From Pseudomonas syringae KCTC 12500 (lineage in GTDB: Bacteria; Pseudomonadota; Gammaproteobacteria; Pseudomonadales; Pseudomonadaceae), in contig NZ_AYTM02000002.1 in assembly GCF_000507185.2 (NCBI RefSeq), positions 1,883,501 to 1,947,500 of the forward strand: 64,000 nt of DNA, given 5' to 3'. The notes beneath the pieces were generated by a model. The model was given only the letters and a program-made list of their open reading frames with translations, did no database searches and was not told the DNA's origin. A program made the position numbers and the translations under genes. This document shows, piece after piece, positions 12,048-23,067 of this stretch (position 1 is its first letter; the number at the start of each line of letters is the position of its first letter).

Positions 12048-13247
12048 ATGTCTGGTAATCGCGGTGTAGTGTATCTCGGCGCTGGCAAGGTCGAAGTGCA
12101 ATCAATTCCTTTCCCGAAAATGGAAGATCCACGCGGCAAGCGCATCGAACACGGCGTGATTCTGCGCGTGGTCTCCACCAACATCTGCGGCTCCGACCAG
12201 CACATGGTACGCGGCCGCACCACGGCGCAAACCGGGCTGGTGCTCGGTCATGAAATCACTGGCGAGGTGCTGGAAGCCGGTCGTGACGTGGAACATCTGA
12301 AAGTCGGTGATCTGGTTTCTGTGCCATTCAACGTGGCGTGCGGTCGCTGCCGCAGTTGCAAGGAACAGAACACCGGCGTCTGCCTGACGGTCAATCCGGC
12401 GCGTCCCGGTGGTGCCTATGGCTATGTCGACATGGGTGACTGGGTTGGCGGCCAGGCTGAATACGTGCTGGTGCCTTACGCGGACTTCAACCTGCTCAAA
12501 CTCCCGGACCGCGACGCGGCGATGGAGAAAATTCGCGACCTGACCTGCCTGTCCGACATCCTGCCCACCGGCTACCACGGCGCAGTGACTGCCGGGGTTG
12601 GCCCTGGCAGCACGGTTTATGTTGCAGGCGCCGGCCCGGTCGGCCTGGCTGCGGCGGCGTCAGCACGCTTGCTGGGCGCTGCCGTGGTGATCGTCGGCGA
12701 CGTGAACCCGACGCGTCTGGTTCATGCCAAGGCCCAGGGCTTCGAAATTGCCGACCTTTCCCAGGACACTCCCTTGCACGAACAGATCGCTGCCTTGCTC
12801 GGCGAGCCTGAAGTGGATTGCGCCATCGACGCCGTAGGCTTCGAAGCACGCGGTCACGGTCATGCTGGCGCTCAGGCCGAAGCACCCGCCACCGTTCTCA
12901 ACTCGTTGATGGGCGTAGTGCGCGTCGCAGGCAAGATCGGCATCCCCGGCCTGTACGTCACCGAAGACCCGGGAGCCGTGGACGCCGCCGCAAAAATGGG
13001 CAGCCTGAGCATCCGCTTCGGTCTGGGCTGGGCCAAATCCCACAGCTTCCACACCGGCCAGACCCCGGTCATGAAATACAACCGCCAGTTGATGCAGGCG
13101 ATCATGTGGGACCGCATCAAAATCGCCGACATAGTGGGTGTCGAGGTGATCAGTCTGGATGATGCTCCGCGGGGGTATGGAGAGTTCGATTCGGGCGTGC
13201 CGAAGAAGTTTGTGATTGATCCGCATGGGTTGTTTGGCGGGAGTTAG
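12048..13247 (+). CDS. fdhA: Formaldehyde dehydrogenase, glutathione-independent
   Basis: A zinc- and NAD-dependent dehydrogenase of 399 residues, the length of the characterised P. putida enzyme. It oxidises formaldehyde released by demethylation steps. The catalytic zinc site is NICGSDQH (Cys46), the structural zinc loop is CGRCRSCKEQNTGVC, and the NAD-binding GAGPVGLAAAA is near residue 194. The start at 12048 was chosen over an in-frame ATG 60 bases upstream because GCGAGGTGA lies at the right spacing and the protein then begins MSGNRGVVYLG as in homologues. Degraded copies of its 3' end recur downstream between the rhs genes. Confidence 0.93.
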   Translation: MSGNRGVVYLGAGKVEVQSIPFPKMEDPRGKRIEHGVILRVVSTNICGSDQHMVRGRTTAQTGLVLGHEITGEVLEAGRDVEHLKVGDLVSVPFNVACGRCRSCKEQNTGVCLTVNPARPGGAYGYVDMGDWVGGQAEYVLVPYADFNLLKLPDRDAAMEKIRDLTCLSDILPTGYHGAVTAGVGPGSTVYVAGAGPVGLAAAASARLLGAAVVIVGDVNPTRLVHAKAQGFEIADLSQDTPLHEQIAALLGEPEVDCAIDAVGFEARGHGHAGAQAEAPATVLNSLMGVVRVAGKIGIPGLYVTEDPGAVDAAAKMGSLSIRFGLGWAKSHSFHTGQTPVMKYNRQLMQAIMWDRIKIADIVGVEVISLDDAPRGYGEFDSGVPKKFVIDPHGLFGGS

Positions 13248-13282: not shown

Positions 13283-13320
13283 CTAGGGTGCAATGTGGAT
13301 TATTCCACTCTGCACCCTAG
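13283..13320. terminator. Large hairpin between convergent fdhA and rhs gene 1
   Basis: CTAGGGTGCA (13283-13292) pairs exactly with TGCACCCTAG (13311-13320), and TGGA/TCCA extends the inner stem. The right arm contains the stop codon of the minus-strand rhs gene. No T run follows on either strand, so intrinsic termination would be weak. A bidirectional 3' stabiliser is equally possible. Confidence 0.5.
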
Positions 13321-14246
13321 CGACGTATAGACTCAATAGACTCGCTAATTGTTTTATTTTTTAAATCTTTCCCATAAGTAGGTAGCCAAACGAGCAAGTC
13401 ATTACCTGGCAGGCTGTTCATAGCCCGCTCAAAGGTCGGAAGAATCGCTTCCGGCGCATGAACGGGCTTATTTTCGATAGCCCAATAATAGTTCGGCGGA
13501 GGTACATCTTCTTTATAGACCGAGCTTGAAAGTCGATCTAACCGTGCCTTGTAAACTTCTTTCAACTCACCGGGAACGGTCAAACCTTTCTGATCATACT
13601 TTGCTATGACTTGGCTCGCACGATCTACATTTTTCCGGGCAGCAATTATTTTTTCATAGTGATTATTCAACACGCGCCTCGGGTTTTTAATCACCCTCAC
13701 TGCTCTCAATATAGGTTTAAAAATATTAGGTATATGTCCATTTTTATCCTCTCGATTAACCGGATCCCCCTCACAGTACCCATACGCATTCACCCCACCC
13801 TCACCAAACGGGCTCAGACTGTCCGGGCTGTTAAACCTCATCAACACCGGGTTAAACGCCCGATACCCGTTACCCAGCAAATAGTGCCCCGTCACCGGGT
13901 CAACCCGCTGGCCGGTAAAGCCCGGCAGGCTTGCGGGGCCTGAAGGATGACGATGTCCGTAAGGCGTGTAGGCAAATTCCAACCCCTGAGCGGCGGTCAC
14001 TGACTGCTGTTGATCCGTCGCCAACAACACGCCGTCGCGCTGATTATTTTCTGCACTCAGGCACGCCAGCAAATGCTCATCCGTGCGCATAAGCGTGTGC
14101 TGGACCTGCCCCTGAATCTGCGTAGCCAGGTGTGTCTTCTGATAAAAAAGGCGAGTGCTATCCTGCCCCGCAGGCGCGCAATCGGCCAGGCGATCCAATG
14201 GATCGTAGCGATAGACACAGAGCACGGACTGCCCGGACGAAGCCAT
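13317..14246 (-). CDS. Short Rhs-core protein 1 with variable C-terminal tail
   Basis: 309 residues. Residues 1-171 are a compact Rhs core: YRYDPLDRLA, then YTPYGHRHPS, LPGFTGQRVDPVTGHYLLGN, NPVLMRFNSPDSLSPFGEGG and NAYGYCEGDPVN. Residues 172-309 form a private tail (VPPPNYYWAIENKPVHAP, FERAMNSLPGNDLLVWLP) that I do not recognise. There is no signal peptide, and the many upstream YD repeats of full-length Rhs/TccC shells are absent. The usual core-tail junction DPSGH is DKNGH here, so self-cleavage may be lost. AAAGGAGTGACAAC precedes the ATG. The tail has lower GC than the core, typical of exchanged toxin tips. The toxin role is inference. Confidence 0.8.
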   Translation of the reverse strand: MASSGQSVLCVYRYDPLDRLADCAPAGQDSTRLFYQKTHLATQIQGQVQHTLMRTDEHLLACLSAENNQRDGVLLATDQQQSVTAAQGLEFAYTPYGHRHPSGPASLPGFTGQRVDPVTGHYLLGNGYRAFNPVLMRFNSPDSLSPFGEGGVNAYGYCEGDPVNREDKNGHIPNIFKPILRAVRVIKNPRRVLNNHYEKIIAARKNVDRASQVIAKYDQKGLTVPGELKEVYKARLDRLSSSVYKEDVPPPNYYWAIENKPVHAPEAILPTFERAMNSLPGNDLLVWLPTYGKDLKNKTISESIESIRR

Positions 14247-14309
14247 GTTGTCACTCCTTTGAAATCACCCATGGCAGCAAGTCTGGGCTGACTCCGTGCT
14301 TGCGCCCAG

Positions 14310-14325
14310 CTAGCAGAACTACTAG
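14310..14325 (-). promoter_or_regulatory. Imperfect palindrome in shared rhs leader (one of three)
   Basis: CTAGCAGAACTACTAG lies about 65 bases upstream of the rhs 1 start. Identical copies occur before rhs 2 (15643-15658) and rhs 3 (17015-17030). The surrounding leader of some 90 bases is almost identical in all three, while the DNA beyond the palindrome differs before rhs 3. The palindrome therefore marks the edge of the duplicated unit. It may be an operator or a recombination remnant. Confidence 0.4.
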
Positions 14326-14345
14326 GTGCCAGGCCGAAAGGCGCT

Positions 14346-14456
14346 GGGCACAGTCACGCTGGCACTCAGACCGAAACGCCCGCCATCGTGGAGCCTGATG
14401 CAGACGTGACGAAGAAATTTGTAATTGATCCGTGTGGGTTGTTGGGTATGACTTGA
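14346..14456 (+). pseudogene. Degenerate fdhA 3'-end relic, copy 1
   Basis: In one frame these 37 codons read GHSHAGTQTETPAIV, a short linker, then KKFVIDPCGLLGMT and a stop. FdhA itself has GHGHAGAQAEAPATV and, at its C terminus, KKFVIDPHGLFGGS. At the DNA level 36 of 44 bases of the first block match fdhA 12853-12896, mostly with transitions as differences. The roughly 300 bases separating these two blocks in fdhA are missing. It is therefore an internally deleted, non-functional duplicate. Confidence 0.75.
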
Positions 14457-14562
14457 ACACTGCCACCTTATTATCACCTTCATGATTAAAAGCCCCCACC
14501 TACCCTCTAACCAACTGGGTGGTTGGCCTTTATCGGAATCGACTTGGCACGTCTATCGGCTT

Positions 14563-15579
14563 CTAGGACGATTTATTGCCACCCCGATGTTTTCCAACCA
14601 CCCTCTCATAATATTTTTGATCATTATCCATAACATACGGCACCCGACCATCTCTTCGAACAACTGCTTGATTATCTCGGACCTGCTTAATAAGCAGTTC
14701 ATTAGCTCCGTGAATGTCTATTGCATTACCATGCGCATCCACGTAGTTATATCGACGAGGAACAGGCGGCGTGATATCGCTCAGTTGCCCTTGCTTGGGA
14801 GGAAGGGCCGGCGGAATGCCGTTCAGCTGCCCTGTCTTGGGAGGGCGGGGTGGTGGGACAACAAGGTGTGACGCATCAATAACACCAGATGCAGACAAAG
14901 GTACGCTCACCGACTTAGTTGAAGTAGCAACCTGTGTGGACCCGGAACTCTCCGCAGAAGTAACCAACGGGGAAGACATAGAATCTTGGCTACCTCTTCG
15001 ACCAAGTAAACGCTTTTTTACACTGCTTGCTCTTTTCAAAAACTTCACTAAAACCGTTGGCCAATGCCCGCTCGGATCAACCCGATTAACCGGATCCCCC
15101 CCACAATACCCATACGCATTCACCCCACCCTCACCAAACGGGCTCAGACTGTCCGGGCTGTTAAACCTCATGAACACCGGGTTAAACGCCCGATACCCAT
15201 TGCCCAGCAAATAGTGCCCCGTCACCGGGTCAACCCGCTGGCCAGCGTAGCCAGGCAGGCTCATCGGCCCTGCTGACGGATGACGATGCCCGTAAGGCGT
15301 ATAAGCAAACGCCGCCCCCTGAGCCACAATCACGGACTGCTGCTGATCCGTCGCCAACAACGCGCCGTCGCGCTGATTATTTTCTGCGCTCAGGCACGCC
15401 AGCAAATGCTCATCCGTGCGCATAAACGTGTGCTGGATCTGCCCCTGAATCTGCGTAGCCAAGAGTGTCTTCTGATAAAAAAGGCGAGTGCTGCCCTGCC
15501 CCGCAGGCGAACAATCGGCCAGACGATCCAACCCGTCGTAGCGATAGACGCAGAGCACGGATTGCCCGGACGAAGCCAT
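14563..15579 (-). CDS. Short Rhs-core protein 2 with proline-rich tail
   Basis: 338 residues. Residues 1-172 are nearly identical to the Rhs core of its two neighbours, with the junction NRVDPSGH intact. The tail (173-338) begins basic (KFLKRASSVKKRLLGRR), passes through a Ser/Thr-rich linker, then has a proline-rich block at 241-276 with PPPRPPKTGQLNG and PPALPPKQGQLSD as a repeat. It ends in a charged domain (YNYVDAHGNAIDIHGANELL, DNDQKYYERVVGKHRGG). The PxxPxK pattern resembles SH3-binding peptides, suggesting interaction with a eukaryotic-type adaptor, but this is inference. CAAAGGAATGAGACC precedes the ATG. No immunity gene lies downstream. Confidence 0.8.
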   Translation of the reverse strand: MASSGQSVLCVYRYDGLDRLADCSPAGQGSTRLFYQKTLLATQIQGQIQHTFMRTDEHLLACLSAENNQRDGALLATDQQQSVIVAQGAAFAYTPYGHRHPSAGPMSLPGYAGQRVDPVTGHYLLGNGYRAFNPVFMRFNSPDSLSPFGEGGVNAYGYCGGDPVNRVDPSGHWPTVLVKFLKRASSVKKRLLGRRGSQDSMSSPLVTSAESSGSTQVATSTKSVSVPLSASGVIDASHLVVPPPRPPKTGQLNGIPPALPPKQGQLSDITPPVPRRYNYVDAHGNAIDIHGANELLIKQVRDNQAVVRRDGRVPYVMDNDQKYYERVVGKHRGGNKSS

Positions 15580-15678
15580 GGTCTCATTCCTTTGAAATCA
15601 CCCATGGCAGCAAGTCTGGGCTGACTCCGTGCTTGCGCCCAGCTAGCAGAACTACTAGGTGCCAGGCCGAAAGGCGCT

Positions 15679-15786
15679 GGGCACAGCCACGCCGGCGCTC
15701 AGACCGAAGCGCCCGCCATCGTGGAGCTTGATGCGGACGTGACGAAGAATTTTGTTATTAATCTGCCTGGTTTTTTGGTACAACTT
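15679..15786 (+). pseudogene. Degenerate fdhA 3'-end relic, copy 2
   Basis: Same layout as the relic between rhs 1 and rhs 2: GHSHAGAQTEAPAIV, a linker, then KNFVINLPGFLV, corresponding to FdhA GHGHAGAQAEAPATV and KKFVIDPHGLFG. The C-terminal block is more diverged than in copy 1 and the stop codon is lost, so this copy looks older. It lies on the + strand between the minus-strand rhs 2 and rhs 3. Confidence 0.7.
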
Positions 15787-15859
15787 GACCACCTGCAGTA
15801 TGGGTAACCTATAGCTACCCGCCCCTATCACAACGCAGCAATACGCAACAACATTCACG

Positions 15860-16951
15860 CTACTTATTTCGAAGCTTAGTAGGCTTATAGATAACAGGAT
15901 TATAACTAAAGCTGGAATATTCGGAAGAGCCAGGCACGTGAATATTACTTTTAAGAAGCAACAGCCCTTGATCATACCGATTTTTACCGCTACCCAGCCA
16001 GCGAATAGAGGCAGACTTCCCAACAATCATGGATGAAATTTTTTCCGGATCCGGATAGGCAAACACCTCTGAAATATAGCCTTTAACAGGCTTTTTTGTA
16101 ATTTTCGAAAAAGAGGCCGCAAAGGAGTTATCTCCCCCTGTAGCTGAATAACACATAACCAACCTTATTTGCTTATACTTATCAAAATTCACACCAGACG
16201 CCACCACTGAGTTGTATAGTTGCTCAGGACCTAAGCCTTGGTTCGCTGCTCTCATCTGATGATATCCATGTTCTTTGATTGGTACTTTGTAGCCGTGCGC
16301 GTAGAAATTAATTCTTTTCGCACCGTTGGCGGTGTCTTCAAAACTTATTAAACCCTCTGAGACAATTTTCATATTTTTTAACGGTTTAGGTTTGAAAAAA
16401 CGCATAACGTTCACCAGTGGCCTGAAAAGCGAGAACATATGCCCGCTCGGATCAACCCGATTAACCGGATCCCCCCCACAATACCCATACGCATTCACCC
16501 CACCCTCACCAAACGGGCTCAGACTGTCCGGGCTGTTGAACCGCATTAGCACCGGGTTAAACGCCCGATACCCATTCCCCAGCAAATAGTGCCCCGTCAC
16601 CGGGTCAACCCGCTGGCCAGTAAAGCCCGGCAGGCTTGCGGAGCCTGAAGGATGACGATGTCCGTAAGGTGTGTAGGCAAATTCCAACCCCTGAGCGGCG
16701 GTCGCGGAATGCTGTTGATCCGTCGCCAACAACGCGCCGTCGCGCTGATTATTTTCTGCGCTCAGGCACGCCAGCAAATGCTCATCCGTGCGCATAAGCG
16801 TGTGCTGGATCTGCCCCTGAATCTGCGTAGCCAAGAGTGTCTTCTGATAAAAAAGGCGAGTGCTGCCCTGCCCCGCAGGCGAACAATCGGCCAGACGATC
16901 CAACCCGTCGTAGCGATAGACGCAGAGCACGGATTGCCCGGACGAAGCCAT
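15860..16951 (-). CDS. Short Rhs-core protein 3 with His-Cys tail domain
   Basis: 363 residues. Residues 1-171 are the shared Rhs core with the junction NRVDPSGH. The 192-residue tail contains RINFYAHGYKVPI (H219, G220), then 48 residues later IRLVMCYSATGGDNSFAASF (C267). A hydrophobic strand ending HG and a second ending in Cys, about 40-50 residues apart, is the clan CD (caspase/C80/CHAT-like) arrangement. A cysteine peptidase or related fold is therefore plausible but not proven. GACTTCAAAGGAGTGAAACC precedes the ATG. It is the rhs gene nearest the giant gene, 119 bases downstream of it, and probably co-transcribed with it. Confidence 0.8.
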   Translation of the reverse strand: MASSGQSVLCVYRYDGLDRLADCSPAGQGSTRLFYQKTLLATQIQGQIQHTLMRTDEHLLACLSAENNQRDGALLATDQQHSATAAQGLEFAYTPYGHRHPSGSASLPGFTGQRVDPVTGHYLLGNGYRAFNPVLMRFNSPDSLSPFGEGGVNAYGYCGGDPVNRVDPSGHMFSLFRPLVNVMRFFKPKPLKNMKIVSEGLISFEDTANGAKRINFYAHGYKVPIKEHGYHQMRAANQGLGPEQLYNSVVASGVNFDKYKQIRLVMCYSATGGDNSFAASFSKITKKPVKGYISEVFAYPDPEKISSMIVGKSASIRWLGSGKNRYDQGLLLLKSNIHVPGSSEYSSFSYNPVIYKPTKLRNK

Positions 16952-17070
16952 GGTTTCACTCCTTTGAAGTCACCCATGGCAGCCAGTCTGGGCTGACTCC
17001 CTGCTTGCGCGCAGCTAGCAGAACTACTAGGCCGTTCCGCCTGCAGGACGAAAAACGCCGGGGACGCGCC

Positions 17071-20000
17071 CTACTCCCGCACAGCCCTCACCCATACCGA
17101 ATAATAATGCTCCTGCACGTAGGCGTTGCTGTCAGGTTCCGGCGACCCGCGCATGCTGTCGATTGACGGGAAAAGACCAAGGTTCCAGTTCCGTCTGGCG
17201 GGCAATTGCGGCGTGACTCCATTTTGATCAGGCTCACGTGCAGGCTCGGACAAATCCGAGGCCAGCACGCCGGTAATCTGCCCGTTCTGGTCCAGCACTT
17301 TCCCGGCCACGAACATGAAATGAAACGGGTAGTCAGAGGACGGGCTGCCCTCCAGCCCACCTCGCTCGATGAAACCGATACCTTCGCCGATCTCGGGAAA
17401 TGACTGCTCGCCGACAAAGTAGTCAGAGTGGTCGCGTGCACTTATCCAGTCATCGAGCGCTGTTGTCGTGATATTCAGGCTCACCGGCTGGCCATCCTGC
17501 AGGGCGACGACCTCGACATTGGGCACCAGGGGCGTCGGATCGCCCAGGCTCTCGCCCCGGTAATCGAACGCGACTTGCCCACCGGCATATTTCGAGACCA
17601 GAAATTCGGTGCTGGAGATGCAGCTTTCAGGCACCGCTGCCTTGGCTTCAAGCCTCACATAACCGTCACGATCCGCTGCGATGGAGTGGAACAGACTCAA
17701 TGGCACATTGAGCTTGCCGGGCACCAGAACGTCGTCGTTCATGATGTGCAGGTCTTCATGGTGAACCTGAAGCGTTCCGCTCGCCGTGTCATGAGCGGAA
17801 TGGGTTTCGTGGGTTGCCAAACTACCGGCCGGCCGCCGGGTGCGGATGCTGCAGATCATCTGATCGATGACATTGCCGCCCTTGAGCGCTGGCCGGTTGA
17901 TCAGCGTGAACTCATGCCCGCCGATGTGACGCACCCAGGGCAGTGCCAGGGTCTCGGCGCGCGACCGGCCTTGCGGCGGCACCAGCAGAAACACCCCGTT
18001 GCGCTCATCCCAGTCGGCCCGGTAGATCCTGCCATTATCCAGCTTGATGTAGTCACGCCCTTCAATCGAGTAACTGCCGCGCTTTGGCCCGCTGCTGATC
18101 GCCTCGGCACCGGTCAGGTCGACAGCCGCGCTGGCAATCCCCACACCTCGGGTGCGCTCGGGATAAAGGGCGTCGTCGATGTGCAGTTGCAGTTGCGCAC
18201 CGCTCAGATGTGCATGCTCGGCCGGCTGCTCCAGGCTGGTGACCGACTCATAGGTATAGCCGCGCTGCGAGGAGAGAAAAATGCGTCGCGCATCGGTTTC
18301 CGAGACATCATCAAGGGACAGCACCGCGATACTTTCGATTCTCGACGGGTCGGTAAAACAGGCTTCGATATCATCGATGACAGACCCCGAATGACTCAGG
18401 TAAAACTCGTCGTGGAGATGCCCCGCCAGCATGCCGAGATGCCTGGCAGGCGAATGGGCGAACCAGGCTTTCTCGCCTGACTTCAGGCTGACTTCTGCCA
18501 TCATCAGGTTGTTCCGGGCCAGCTTCTCCTGAAGCTGACTGACGAAGCCGCTCCGCTCGCTGGCGAGCGGCGGAATGTTTTCCTGTGCAGCCAGAAGCGG
18601 CTCGTTCAAACGAAGCTGTTTGAGGATATTTTCCCCCAGGCTCAACTCCCGAGATCTCGATGCCGCCCCCCACTCAATGGTATGGCCCAGCAAGGTGTTG
18701 GCCAGCGCCGCCTGGTTACGCGCAGCAAAAAGAATGGCCAGTTCCGCGGGGGTATCGAGTACATAAAAGGGATTTTCCACCGTGGTAATGGACGAGGGCA
18801 GCCGCGATTTGATTTTGGCCACAGCGTCGATGTTCCTGGCAACCCACTGAGGGTTGCGTGCGTAGGCTTCGTTCGCTGCCTTCGAACCGTAGAACAGCTC
18901 CAGCGCAAAGTCATCATGGGCAATCCCGTTGCGATAATCCGACTGGTCGCGCCACAGGTGGGGCAACGCTCGCTTGGGATCTGCTTTCGGACTGATTTTC
19001 TGCAAAGTCAGAGCAACAGGTGGCTGGTCGTGCAACGTCTCGCCCGGCGCCAGCGCCAGGAAGTTCTCGATGGGCACAGTGCCGCGGTAGTGAACACCGC
19101 GATCCGCTTCGATCACCAGTTCCTGTCCGCTGCCATCACTGAGCGTCGCCAGGACACCCGCCACGGTCTTTCTGCCGACCAGACCTTGCAGCGTGTCGCT
19201 TAGCCGGACGGTCACGAACATGCCTTGAGCCGCGACGATCTCTGCCTGGATTTCAGGCTTGTAGGCCGGTATGGCAGGCAACATTCTGGCGACTTCCATG
19301 CGGCTGCCGTCAGCGCGAATGAAGGCGGTCGTCTCGACATCGGTGCCCGCATGTTCGAGTACTTCGACATGACCATTACGCTCGGTGACGTATTTGTGCT
19401 CGATCACACCAAGCGCCATGGTCTGCTGGCTTACCCTGCTATCTGCGTCGATGACCCGCACGGAGACTGTTTCAAGCGTCGCCACGCAGTTGTCATACCA
19501 GCTGACCGTGTTAGCGGGAGCCAGAAAACGTTCCGGGCGACCGCTGAAGCCAAGCGGAAAATCTTCGGTGTGGGCAAAACGTGAAAGCTGCGGGGCGTCG
19601 ACCGTTGACTGCGGATGCCTGCGCCATTGCCCTGCTTCCAGGTCCAGCGCATGCAGAGGTCGCAATTCCGTTCCTGCCACCCCGCTGACCGCCCGGCAGG
19701 CAAAGCCGTTGAGCATGTAGATCTTCTCGCTGATGCCACCCAGCAGCACCGCCCGAGCGCCACCTTCGACCATCGCGTTGCCGTTCCAGTCGAGGCGCGT
19801 GACCTTTCTGCCCGTCGGCCGCTCGGATATCTGCCCATCCTCGGAAACCCGCCAGTGAGAGCTGCTTGTGGACGGCCGACGCCGCGCGAGGTGTTCGCCC
19901 TCGATGGCATCGCTGTGCTCAGGGTGTCGAACCGTTTCGGTCAGATCAGACCGGTCAGACACGGCGTGCTGGCTGACGGTCGGTTGATCATGCGGTCTCG

Positions 20001-22887
20001 CGGACCGGAGCCCCTTCACCGCTGATATGCCGCAATGCAGCGCCGAATGCAGACCGACCAGCATAAAGCCGAAGTTCTTCACAGACTCCTCGTAGTCGTT
20101 GGCCTTGATCGACTCGCCGAGGGCCTGGACCTGCTGGCTCATCGTCCAGATATTGGTGCCTTGCAGCATCAGTACACCCAGCACCCTGGGAGGGACCGTG
20201 CGCATTTTGCACAGCACCAACTCGGCAATGATGTTGACTGCATCCATCGCGATGCCTTCATCATTGCCGTCGTAAATATCGAATCCCAGGTTGATGAAGT
20301 TGCCCAGCACAGGAATCAGTCCGCCGACCTGATGCACCAGTTGCAGCACATGCTGTGCGCTGGTCGACATGTTCTGAATGTCATCGTCGTTCGCCCGGGC
20401 GCTCAACATCTGCCTGAACGCCAGAGCACTGGCTTCAAGCCGGACCTTCTCGTCGGCGTTCAATAACTCGATGCAATGAACCGGTCTGTCACTGTCCGAC
20501 AGCGCAGTCCCTTCCAGAGTCTGCAGGCGCAAGGCGGCCGTACCTGAAACCAGCACGAGCCGCTCGGCCTCCAGCGCCCGGTAGGTTTCGGTCGCCCGGA
20601 TCGCGTAATTCTCGGCCTCAAGTTTGAACGCTGCCTGTGGCGCGGTCAGTCGAGCAGGCAGCTGGCCGTTGTTGACGAAGGCAATGTTCGCGTCGAATAA
20701 GCCGGTCAGCTTCGCTTGCAGGGCGTCCAGACTTGCTGTGTAACGGGTTTTATCGGCGAGCGCCTGAGCCAGTCGCCCGAGCCGTTCATCACGATTGTCG
20801 GCAAGCGCCAGCTCGCGGCGCAGGTCTTCGTCATACACCACACTCAGCAGTGTTCGATAACCGGCCGACTCTTCATGCTTGAAAAACGTGCCGGTATTGA
20901 TCCAGCCGGCCTGGTAGCTGATATCGAACGAAGACCGCGCAATCACCGGCCAACAGGATTCGTTCAGCCCCAGATAACGACACAGTTCACGCGCCACGAA
21001 CTCCGGCTGGGTAGGCTGCAGAACGACTTGCAGTCGCTGTTGATCCTCGAGGTTCTGCGCAATCACTCTGTAGTAGGTGTTGACTGCGTCATTCAAGCGC
21101 CGCGCATAGGCCGCCTGACGCTGCGCGTGCGGCAAAGCCGGCAGGTCCTCCTGGTAATGGGCCAGCAGATAACGGACCGCGCGCTGCAATGTCACCGAGT
21201 GGCCGACGTCCCATTGCACCTCGCGCAACTCCTCGGTCAGTTCCACGAACCGCGACCTGATGACGTCATAAGCCCCAAGCGCAAGGGGATCCACGTACAG
21301 AAACGGAGGTTCTTTGCTGCGGATATCGAAGGCTTCGATGTCGATATCGCTCAGCGAATGGCTACGCTGGACAGGATTGGGCACGATCACTTCCACGATC
21401 AGCCGTTCGATATTGATCGCCCCCTCGGCTTCGCCATAGCGAATGGTGTTGATCATGTAAGACGACAGTTCCTGGCGCGCCGCGTCGAAGTATCCGGCAA
21501 GATCCTTCGCGCGCCAGGGATTGACGGTGTGCTGCTCGCGGTAGACATCGTGGTGGCCGTCGCTGTCGTAGACAACCAGTTTCAGGGTGATGCCACCGGC
21601 TTGCTGGAACATTGCCAGCAGCGCGTTTTCGTTGTCTTGCAGCGATGCACCGAAATGCCGGTAGCTGTTCAGCAAAGTGCGACATCGATCAAGATGCCAC
21701 CGCATCTCCTTCTCCAGCTCAAGGTCGATGACACCGTAATCGTCAGTTCCATGCGCCTGGACCTTGTGCTGCCGAAAGGTGTAGACCTGCGACGTATCGA
21801 GCATAAAATGCTGGTGTTCTGCGAGGGTGAAAGGCAACGCGCGCGCAAGCATCGCGAGATGGGCTTCGCGCTCTCCGGGCAACAGCGCAGTGATCACCTG
21901 CAGCAGATCGTCTCGTGTGGCAGCCAAGGGAATGTCGACACCGTAGTAATCGAGCAGACCATGCAGTGAAACGGCTTGATCGTCGCGAATGGCCAGAATG
22001 CACCTGGCATCCGCCGACTCCAGATGCGGCGCCAACGGGGTCAGGCTGTCCGTGAAACGGATGACCCGCAGGTGCAGGTCTGACAGCGTGGCATACGCAG
22101 GTTGCCGCCCTCTGGAGACGCCCTGCAGTTGCAGCAAGTGAACCGGCCTGCCTTCATTCATCCTGACATGCAGCACACAGGTGAAAGGCTGTCTGAAATC
22201 CATCTGAGTCTTGTCGACCAGATCAAGAACGTAGCGCAGGTCTTTACGGCGTACCCCGGGCAACAGATCTTCATCGATATCGCCAGCCGGATCCACGCGG
22301 GCGATAACCCGCAGCAACGTCTTGAACTGCTGCAATATCGAACTGCCAAAAGCGACGCCGGCAAACAGCGGCGAGTCGTCAGCTACGGCCATGAACACGC
22401 TGTTGGTCATACAGGTGCCGGTCTTCACGTCCCGCAGGCGTGCGCGCAGCGTATTCAGCAACCTGGGGTAATCGCCCCGGGCGCGATCGATGCGCTCGGC
22501 TCGGACGCTCGGCGAATGGGACTCGCGCTGATGACTCTGCGCAATATCGAACACCGCCTTGGCCAGTTCGTGCTCGGGGCCCGCATCCGATACTGGCGAA
22601 TCGACGGAACGGGCAACACGTTCGGTGCTGTCGCCAAGCGCGTTAAGCTCATCGTCAAACAGCACTGATTTCAGGGTATTCAGGAGTTCGATGTCGTCGG
22701 CCCATCGCCCGAACGAGCTGGCTGCTCCGAGTACCTGGATCTCGTCCAGAAGCGTGAAACCTTCAGGCCGGGGCCGTTGGAGAATGGCGGCCAGCTGCTC
22801 GCTACCCTCAGTTGTCAGCATGTGCTGAAGACTTTCCCGGCCGGCAGCTGATATGGAAGGAAGTGATGCGGTGTAGGTGTCGGTCAT
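17071..22887 (-). CDS. Very large toxin-like protein of unknown family
   Basis: 1938 residues, no signal peptide. The ATG at 22887 (MTDTYTASLPSIS) is preferred to one 18 bases upstream because CACGGAGCATCAGC precedes it. A mid-protein hydrophobic segment (LVHQVGGLIPVLGNFINLGF and following, about residues 860-980) could insert into membranes. After it come beta-rich segments with WYDNCVATLETVSV and WDERNGVFLLVPP. The last 185 residues contain C1756 (ESCISSTEFL), H1856 (DYPFHFMFVAGKV) and D1878, an order compatible with a papain-like Cys-His-Asp deamidase or protease. Size, layout and position upstream of three Rhs proteins suggest a dermonecrotic- or Mcf-like toxin, but I cannot name the family. 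A hypothetical large secreted effector is the safe reading. Confidence 0.75.
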   Translation of the reverse strand: MTDTYTASLPSISAAGRESLQHMLTTEGSEQLAAILQRPRPEGFTLLDEIQVLGAASSFGRWADDIELLNTLKSVLFDDELNALGDSTERVARSVDSPVSDAGPEHELAKAVFDIAQSHQRESHSPSVRAERIDRARGDYPRLLNTLRARLRDVKTGTCMTNSVFMAVADDSPLFAGVAFGSSILQQFKTLLRVIARVDPAGDIDEDLLPGVRRKDLRYVLDLVDKTQMDFRQPFTCVLHVRMNEGRPVHLLQLQGVSRGRQPAYATLSDLHLRVIRFTDSLTPLAPHLESADARCILAIRDDQAVSLHGLLDYYGVDIPLAATRDDLLQVITALLPGEREAHLAMLARALPFTLAEHQHFMLDTSQVYTFRQHKVQAHGTDDYGVIDLELEKEMRWHLDRCRTLLNSYRHFGASLQDNENALLAMFQQAGGITLKLVVYDSDGHHDVYREQHTVNPWRAKDLAGYFDAARQELSSYMINTIRYGEAEGAINIERLIVEVIVPNPVQRSHSLSDIDIEAFDIRSKEPPFLYVDPLALGAYDVIRSRFVELTEELREVQWDVGHSVTLQRAVRYLLAHYQEDLPALPHAQRQAAYARRLNDAVNTYYRVIAQNLEDQQRLQVVLQPTQPEFVARELCRYLGLNESCWPVIARSSFDISYQAGWINTGTFFKHEESAGYRTLLSVVYDEDLRRELALADNRDERLGRLAQALADKTRYTASLDALQAKLTGLFDANIAFVNNGQLPARLTAPQAAFKLEAENYAIRATETYRALEAERLVLVSGTAALRLQTLEGTALSDSDRPVHCIELLNADEKVRLEASALAFRQMLSARANDDDIQNMSTSAQHVLQLVHQVGGLIPVLGNFINLGFDIYDGNDEGIAMDAVNIIAELVLCKMRTVPPRVLGVLMLQGTNIWTMSQQVQALGESIKANDYEESVKNFGFMLVGLHSALHCGISAVKGLRSARPHDQPTVSQHAVSDRSDLTETVRHPEHSDAIEGEHLARRRPSTSSSHWRVSEDGQISERPTGRKVTRLDWNGNAMVEGGARAVLLGGISEKIYMLNGFACRAVSGVAGTELRPLHALDLEAGQWRRHPQSTVDAPQLSRFAHTEDFPLGFSGRPERFLAPANTVSWYDNCVATLETVSVRVIDADSRVSQQTMALGVIEHKYVTERNGHVEVLEHAGTDVETTAFIRADGSRMEVARMLPAIPAYKPEIQAEIVAAQGMFVTVRLSDTLQGLVGRKTVAGVLATLSDGSGQELVIEADRGVHYRGTVPIENFLALAPGETLHDQPPVALTLQKISPKADPKRALPHLWRDQSDYRNGIAHDDFALELFYGSKAANEAYARNPQWVARNIDAVAKIKSRLPSSITTVENPFYVLDTPAELAILFAARNQAALANTLLGHTIEWGAASRSRELSLGENILKQLRLNEPLLAAQENIPPLASERSGFVSQLQEKLARNNLMMAEVSLKSGEKAWFAHSPARHLGMLAGHLHDEFYLSHSGSVIDDIEACFTDPSRIESIAVLSLDDVSETDARRIFLSSQRGYTYESVTSLEQPAEHAHLSGAQLQLHIDDALYPERTRGVGIASAAVDLTGAEAISSGPKRGSYSIEGRDYIKLDNGRIYRADWDERNGVFLLVPPQGRSRAETLALPWVRHIGGHEFTLINRPALKGGNVIDQMICSIRTRRPAGSLATHETHSAHDTASGTLQVHHEDLHIMNDDVLVPGKLNVPLSLFHSIAADRDGYVRLEAKAAVPESCISSTEFLVSKYAGGQVAFDYRGESLGDPTPLVPNVEVVALQDGQPVSLNITTTALDDWISARDHSDYFVGEQSFPEIGEGIGFIERGGLEGSPSSDYPFHFMFVAGKVLDQNGQITGVLASDLSEPAREPDQNGVTPQLPARRNWNLGLFPSIDSMRGSPEPDSNAYVQEHYYSVWVRAVRE

Positions 22888-23067
22888 TGCTGATGCTCCG
22901 TGCATTCCAAATGACCGACACCATGCTGTTTCGCGGAAAAAGCCGGGTAATACATAGATGTTCTATGACAACGCCGGGCACACCGGGAACAAGCTTCTGT
23001 TCCTCCAGTCAAACCCTCTGCTTCATCGCCCACTCACGGGCGGTTCCGGTTCGATAAAGGTGACGCA

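Follow-up and report, generated by a model that had tools for sequence, protein, structure and literature searches.

Displaced ends of the fdhA gene between rhs cassettes of Pseudomonas as probable scars of repeated insertion

The 3' end of fdhA, a housekeeping gene, recurs between rhs genes in a stretch of 64,000 nucleotides from Pseudomonas syringae KCTC 12500 (the window), and this raises the question of how the end of an enzyme gene came to lie in an array of toxin-like genes. A preliminary description of this DNA proposed that a unit of fdhA 3' end plus rhs was duplicated in tandem, or that new cassettes entered by recombination between regions of homology. Our analysis of fdhA loci across Pseudomonas favors entry from outside: the fragments, which we call relics, are most probably the scars of successive insertions into the fdhA 3' end, a reading to which we give a probability of roughly 0.83.

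The rhs array downstream of fdhA

The intact fdhA gene (12048..13247, + strand; start codon read from the sequence) encodes glutathione-independent formaldehyde dehydrogenase (TIGR02819 equivalog, 753.5 bits), and its 3' end would be the dock discussed below. It is followed by a terminator-like inverted repeat (13283..13320, read from the sequence), which differs from the flank behind either relic. Three rhs cassettes come next, all on the minus strand: cassette 1 (13317..14246, 309 aa), which adjoins the intact fdhA gene, cassette 2 (14563..15579, 338 aa) and cassette 3 (15860..16951, 363 aa). The array is bounded by a large gene of 1944 aa (17071..22905, minus strand) for which neither Pfam nor NCBIfam gave a match above cut-off. 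All three cassettes contain the Rhs repeat-associated core TIGR03696 above cut-off, and each carries a tip of its own. These tips show no mutual similarity at E 1e-3, that of cassette 1 has no match at this threshold among 117 tips, and a tip-family search of the window cassettes returned no match. With a core followed by a variable tip, the cassettes appear toxin-like and would fit the polymorphic Rhs toxins; ORF positions, the sole criterion applied, revealed no immunity gene beside them. Cassette 1 would be the newest member of the array and cassette 3 the oldest.

The leader of the cassettes (14247..14334, minus strand, for cassette 1, as delimited by gap alignment) is present in three copies genome-wide, all of them in this array. 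It contains a dyad, CTAGCAGAACTACTAG, at 14310..14325, 15643..15658 and 17015..17030, and a genome-wide search found these three sites only with fewer than three mismatches. The dyad is close to CTAGCAGAACTGCTAG, 16 bases situated about 65 bases before the core start, in the leaders of related loci too. It was found within 4 mismatches in 84 of 119 surveyed cassettes (46 genomes) versus 3 of 119 shuffled leaders, these sequences being related and not independent, and it appears to be a common operator or promoter site for some regulator.

The similarity of the intervening sequence to fdhA is real. Gap 1 (14247-14562) and gap 2 (15580-15859) align in two pieces to fdhA at about 12842-12895 and 13182-13237 with 78-82% identity, and the score was reached by none of 500 dinucleotide shuffles for each of six segments, lying 12 to 18 SD above the mean. 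These shuffles, together with controls using the fdhA 5' part, the fdhA middle and purU (see below), rule out chance similarity. The internal deletion, previously put at about 300 bases, measures about 290 bp (98 to 385-391 in the numbering of the final 450 bases) and its split is identical in relic 1 (14335..14456, + strand) and relic 2 (15668..15788, + strand). The two relics are 86% identical, have nearly identical leaders and both end in TGA near the expected end of fdhA. The order fdhA, rhs1, relic 1, rhs2, relic 2, rhs3 given in the preliminary description is correct; its statement that the matching blocks lie in one frame holds for relic 1 and fails for relic 2, which has a one-base gap near its end. 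This gap and the frame-shifted counterpart in another species make the relic unlike a gene. Gap 3 (16952-17070) contains the leader, and its alignment to fdhA revealed no relic.

Relics at fdhA loci across the genus

To place the window in context, we assembled 181 loci: the window itself, 80 FdhA loci (the best 80 of 532) and 100 stretches from 99 further Pseudomonas genomes. The latter genomes were drawn from the best 150 (window's own included) of 398 searched, 50 of these not being taken in; 24 of the 99 were chosen for two or more fdhA matches and the rest came from the same ranked list. After exclusion of one locus without usable fdhA, eight duplicates and eight loci with less than 3 kb downstream, 164 remained. 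A strict relic had to match in direct orientation at E 1e-5 or better, lie within 6 kb and extend into the last 70 bases of fdhA.

Strict relics were found at 17 of the 164 loci, a rate that is not a prevalence, since loci were partly chosen for second matches. Related genomes with varying rhs numbers, which the preliminary description had pointed to as a check, showed relics to be enriched where there are two or more rhs cores (15/35 loci, versus 2/129 with fewer; Fisher p 5e-10, a guide only, as the loci are related). Split cores were counted as two, and merging them did not change the number of relic loci that have at least two cores (15). The trend was the same in the FdhA-match set plus the window, where relics occur at 5 of 74 loci, corresponding to 5/15 with two or more cores versus 0/59 with fewer (p 2e-4). 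Loci picked for a second fdhA match had a strict relic in 12 of 23 cases and none near fdhA in 11 of 23, and the remaining unpicked loci of the further genomes had none (0/67). No minus-strand relic at E 1e-5 or better was seen among the 164 loci. Several matches were not counted as strict: an internal piece of 69 bp in L176, three that fall short of the gene end (L188, L205, L226) and six with E above 1e-5, three of them inverted (L062, L096, L099, L103, L180, L214). Relic-like sequences outside the strict count include one in P. amygdali (L162), the internal piece of L176 and a 40-base match about 1.2 kb past fdhA in G105.

The same loci gave no match to the 5' 450 bp of fdhA (0/149) or to the 3' 450 bp of purU (0/146), while the middle of fdhA matched in 2 of 163, both matches being extensions of the L095 and L151 relics. 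A 450-bp piece from upstream of fdhA matched in 21 of 148 loci; the coordinates of the 12 loci listed suggest that these matches represent rhs cores upstream of fdhA together with short repeat-like pieces.

Relics attached to rhs leaders away from fdhA, named in the preliminary description as evidence against its reading, were absent from 30 whole genomes searched with the fdhA end, in which the 3'-end pieces sit at the fdhA locus. Matches elsewhere in these genomes were near-full-query matches (second fdhA-like genes) and five of 29-49 bases missing the 3' end, plus one 209-base fdhA-like piece (75%) away from the fdhA locus at G289:C1:5427604-5427812. Locus L162, assigned to P. amygdali because a sister contig is identical to L035, has a leader and relic without fdhA on the contig, which is a draft fragment. 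The occurrence of fdhA ends among rhs cassettes is confirmed and extends well beyond the window, to a number of Pseudomonas species.

The relics are in fdhA orientation. They start between -691 and -59 within fdhA, and at 10 loci a total of 11 continue beyond the stop as far as +29..+52, which roughly equals the length of the fdhA terminator. The direct repeat ranges from about 50 to about 735 bp with differing starts. The variable starts and the run-on through the terminator argue against a fixed attachment site. Grouped by leader and fdhA boundary, the 21 junctions comprise about 18 different ones by our own reading, with the caveat that decay can move boundaries and that L137 and L145 have one leader in common. 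A single junction is shared by L136, the window (twice) and L162; about 145 bp are missing at this junction in L136, where the relic is frame-shifted, about 290 in the window and the 3' part in L162. The tip of window cassette 2 is related to the tip behind the same junction in L162 (53% over 163 aa), and the cassette in front of the L162 relic has a tip related to the fdhA-adjacent tip of Pseudomonas sp. KUIN-1 (64% over 125 aa). The presence of one junction before different tips may reflect later recombination via relic, fdhA end and core homology.

Pre-insertion alleles and the origin of the relics

The direction of the events is indicated by alleles in which the sequence behind a relic lies beside intact fdhA; these come from other species, the collections holding one genome per species rather than sister strains. 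P. congelans (L027) has a single cassette between fdhA and the large gene, an ortholog of window cassette 3 (tip 58.8% over 187 aa). The first base after its fdhA stop aligns with window position 15789, right behind relic 2, and from there about 1.4 kb are similar at 77.5%; adding fdhA to the comparison extends the alignment across relic 2 and into the end of the P. congelans fdhA gene. The preliminary description's view that copy 2 is the older one is supported by this position of relic 2 at a site common with P. congelans. In L143, one cassette stands between fdhA and a sequence that in L167 comes immediately after fdhA and in L215, L148 and L199 is located 93-221 bases downstream of it. In L154, a 0.74-kb piece parts fdhA from sequence directly after fdhA in L213 and L223; this insert contains, about 61-600 after the fdhA stop, a cold-shock gene (PF00313) and small ORFs, with no rhs. 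In 13 of 168 loci, cold-shock genes like that of L154 are found no more than 3 kb downstream of fdhA, and the dock may thus not be reserved for rhs.

Over the whole survey, 6 of 19 relic right flanks match sequence beside intact fdhA in another genome, four of them starting within 18 bases of the stop (window/L027, L143/L167, L154/L213 and L152/L087); 10 of 19 have no match and 1 of 19 matches only cassette DNA. An empty allele in a relative and an insert between long direct repeats of the target are thus found together in four pairs. The flank behind the relic, and not that behind the intact fdhA gene, is common with relatives in L143 (5/6), L154 (2/4) and the window (1/4, P. congelans), the other relatives scored for these loci matching neither flank. 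This shared flank is the reason why, in these cases, we take the relic for the native end and consider the intact gene to carry the end of the newcomer. L152 and L087 are also collinear, but the terminator comparison was opposite for 3/3 relatives.

These observations suggest that the relics are best read as former fdhA ends, displaced by DNA that brought another fdhA end and a cassette. Incoming DNA from a related Pseudomonas would contain an fdhA end, often with terminator, followed by a complete short rhs cassette with its leader. A homologous crossover within fdhA would keep the enzyme gene whole, now with the donor's end, and the other end of the fragment would join illegitimately inside the resident fdhA; a circle entering by single crossover would give the same outcome. 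The old fdhA end, cut off and pushed outward with its old neighbour behind it, would then decay by deletion and frame shift. Later use of relics as additional regions of homology would account for the single junction and single deletion that relics 1 and 2 have in common before different tips. As expected for one homologous junction, the fdhA 3' end, often with terminator, is present in both insert and target; the second junctions differ and have no obvious common site, and are too decayed for microhomology to be judged. Two proposals of the preliminary description, that new cassettes entered via fdhA homology and that the fdhA end is a repeated landing site, are supported. The relics are indeed fdhA sequence, as it stated, and would be displaced former ends rather than decayed copies of the present gene.

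Some results count against insertion, among them the flanks with no match, the picked loci that have no strict relic and the L152 comparison described above. In addition, of 15 relics measuring 100 bp or more, 11 have the fdhA of their own genome as their closest relative among 156 genes (three tied), which would also fit copying within the genome. In the last 60 bases of relic 2, P. congelans has 46 identities, KUIN-1 and P. caricapapayae 45 and the window's own fdhA 43, a small margin. A mosaic test of intact fdhA genes gave p 0.067 for all pairs and 0.095 for close pairs, with one strong outlier pair, L151/L155. Closeness to the own genome and the weak mosaic signal would fit donors that are close kin, and do not prove them. 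Between L151 and L155, which both have relics, the similarity of the fdhA genes falls from about 97% in the 5' part to 88% over the final 300 bases, likely the mark of a recombined gene end.

The closeness of relics to their own fdhA is what unequal crossing over would yield if it had copied the unit of fdhA 3' end plus rhs, with the copies later diverging or swapping tips, and the junction, deletion and nearly identical leaders common to relics 1 and 2, as well as the two relics of L152 with a common leader and nearly the same boundary, can be accounted for in the same way. We nevertheless consider this origin improbable: tips within arrays are mostly unrelated, only 9 of 105 within-genome pairs being similar (at most 40% identity except for one 16-residue stretch), and the L143 and L154 inserts, with genes missing from the pre-insertion allele, are absent from relatives in which fdhA directly precedes the post-relic sequence. 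Tandem duplication, proposed earlier as one of two possible origins, may instead be a second step behind twin relics, and the relic junction was probably copied inside the window array by local duplication or by relic-to-relic recombination.

Integrases integrate at tRNA genes, and site-specific integration at the fdhA end, leaving a duplicate of the attachment site at each insertion, would likewise yield a complete gene end accompanied by a direct repeat. This is very unlikely here given the variation in repeat length and starts described above, and no recombinase was seen in the two simple inserts, those of L143 (one rhs gene) and L154. Such variable boundaries led us to set aside an integrase-borne element specific for a gene 3' end, and a short fixed target duplication of the transposase type was not found either (starts -691..-59, ends up to +52). 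It is equally hard to credit that the relic is a conserved functional element between cassettes (a small peptide, terminator or regulatory RNA), despite the open fdhA frame of relic 1 and the similarity of the two copies, as its counterpart has a frame shift in L136 and is largely lost from L162, its extent varies between genomes, none adjoins the leader of cassette 3, and the conserved item is the leader dyad beside it.

Insertion into the fdhA 3' end thus remains our preferred reading. A broader proposal, on which we are evenly divided, is that the fdhA end acts genus-wide as an integrase-free homology dock, to which any short DNA with an fdhA end could be added with the enzyme unharmed, displaced cassettes staying readable from their leaders and the scars both recording the order of arrival and acting as further docks.

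Relation to known insertion systems

The type of event is already known; what is new is a recurrent and apparently integrase-free dock at one housekeeping gene. Among the open-access papers listed (titles and abstract starts), none reported this arrangement linking fdhA or formaldehyde dehydrogenase with Rhs or islands, and the available part of PMC5006985 does not mention fdhA or formaldehyde. The following comparisons concern portions of the cited papers. Long target duplication, described for restriction-modification genes of Helicobacter pylori (Nobusato et al., 2000; via PMC1643837 and PMC2749054), likewise places an insert within a long direct repeat of resident sequence, with filled and empty alleles. 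By comparison, the fdhA case recurs at one gene end in several species, brings in rhs or, in one instance, a cold-shock gene, and involves stacked insertions that leave old ends as scars.

Displacement of Rhs C-termini, in which new tips enter and old ones are pushed aside into strings, possibly through a circle and crossover (Jackson et al., 2009; PMC2935791), resembles our arrays in this succession. That process is anchored in the rhs core, and the pieces it displaces, core fragments plus tips, come to lie in a silent position, whereas the fdhA array is anchored on its tip side by a housekeeping gene next to it, and displaced cassettes of the window keep core, start and leader. That model was set aside for the window, the displaced cassettes being full ORFs with a leader and its dyad. 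The effector-immunity arrays of type VI secretion systems (T6SS), possibly formed by homology-facilitated illegitimate recombination (Kirchberger et al., 2017; PMC5361080), are alike in having one homologous anchor, one illegitimate end and successive insertions with older modules further back. Their anchor is the region upstream of the module and they retain old immunity genes, whereas the fdhA array retains whole cassettes, with no immunity gene recognised from ORF positions. Orphan cdiA-CT/rhs-CT modules (Poole et al., 2011; PMC3150448) also form arrays of polymorphic toxin modules at one locus; they are gene fragments paired with immunity genes, and the available parts of that paper do not mention scars of a housekeeping gene.

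The growth of toxin repertoires such as Rhs arrays without mobile-element enzymes has so far been argued mostly from models. The fdhA locus, with filled and empty alleles at hand, a single housekeeping anchor and scars that give the order of events, allows a model with one homologous and one illegitimate junction to be tested. It also calls for caution, as a core gene may owe its 3' end to a donor.

Two further observations concern the cassettes themselves. Rhs cores are also found upstream of fdhA in L065, L061 and L068. Some cassettes in the arrays of L045, L095, L139 and L029 look broken, with a core split over two frames or an early stop, so that the arrays contain dead members too.
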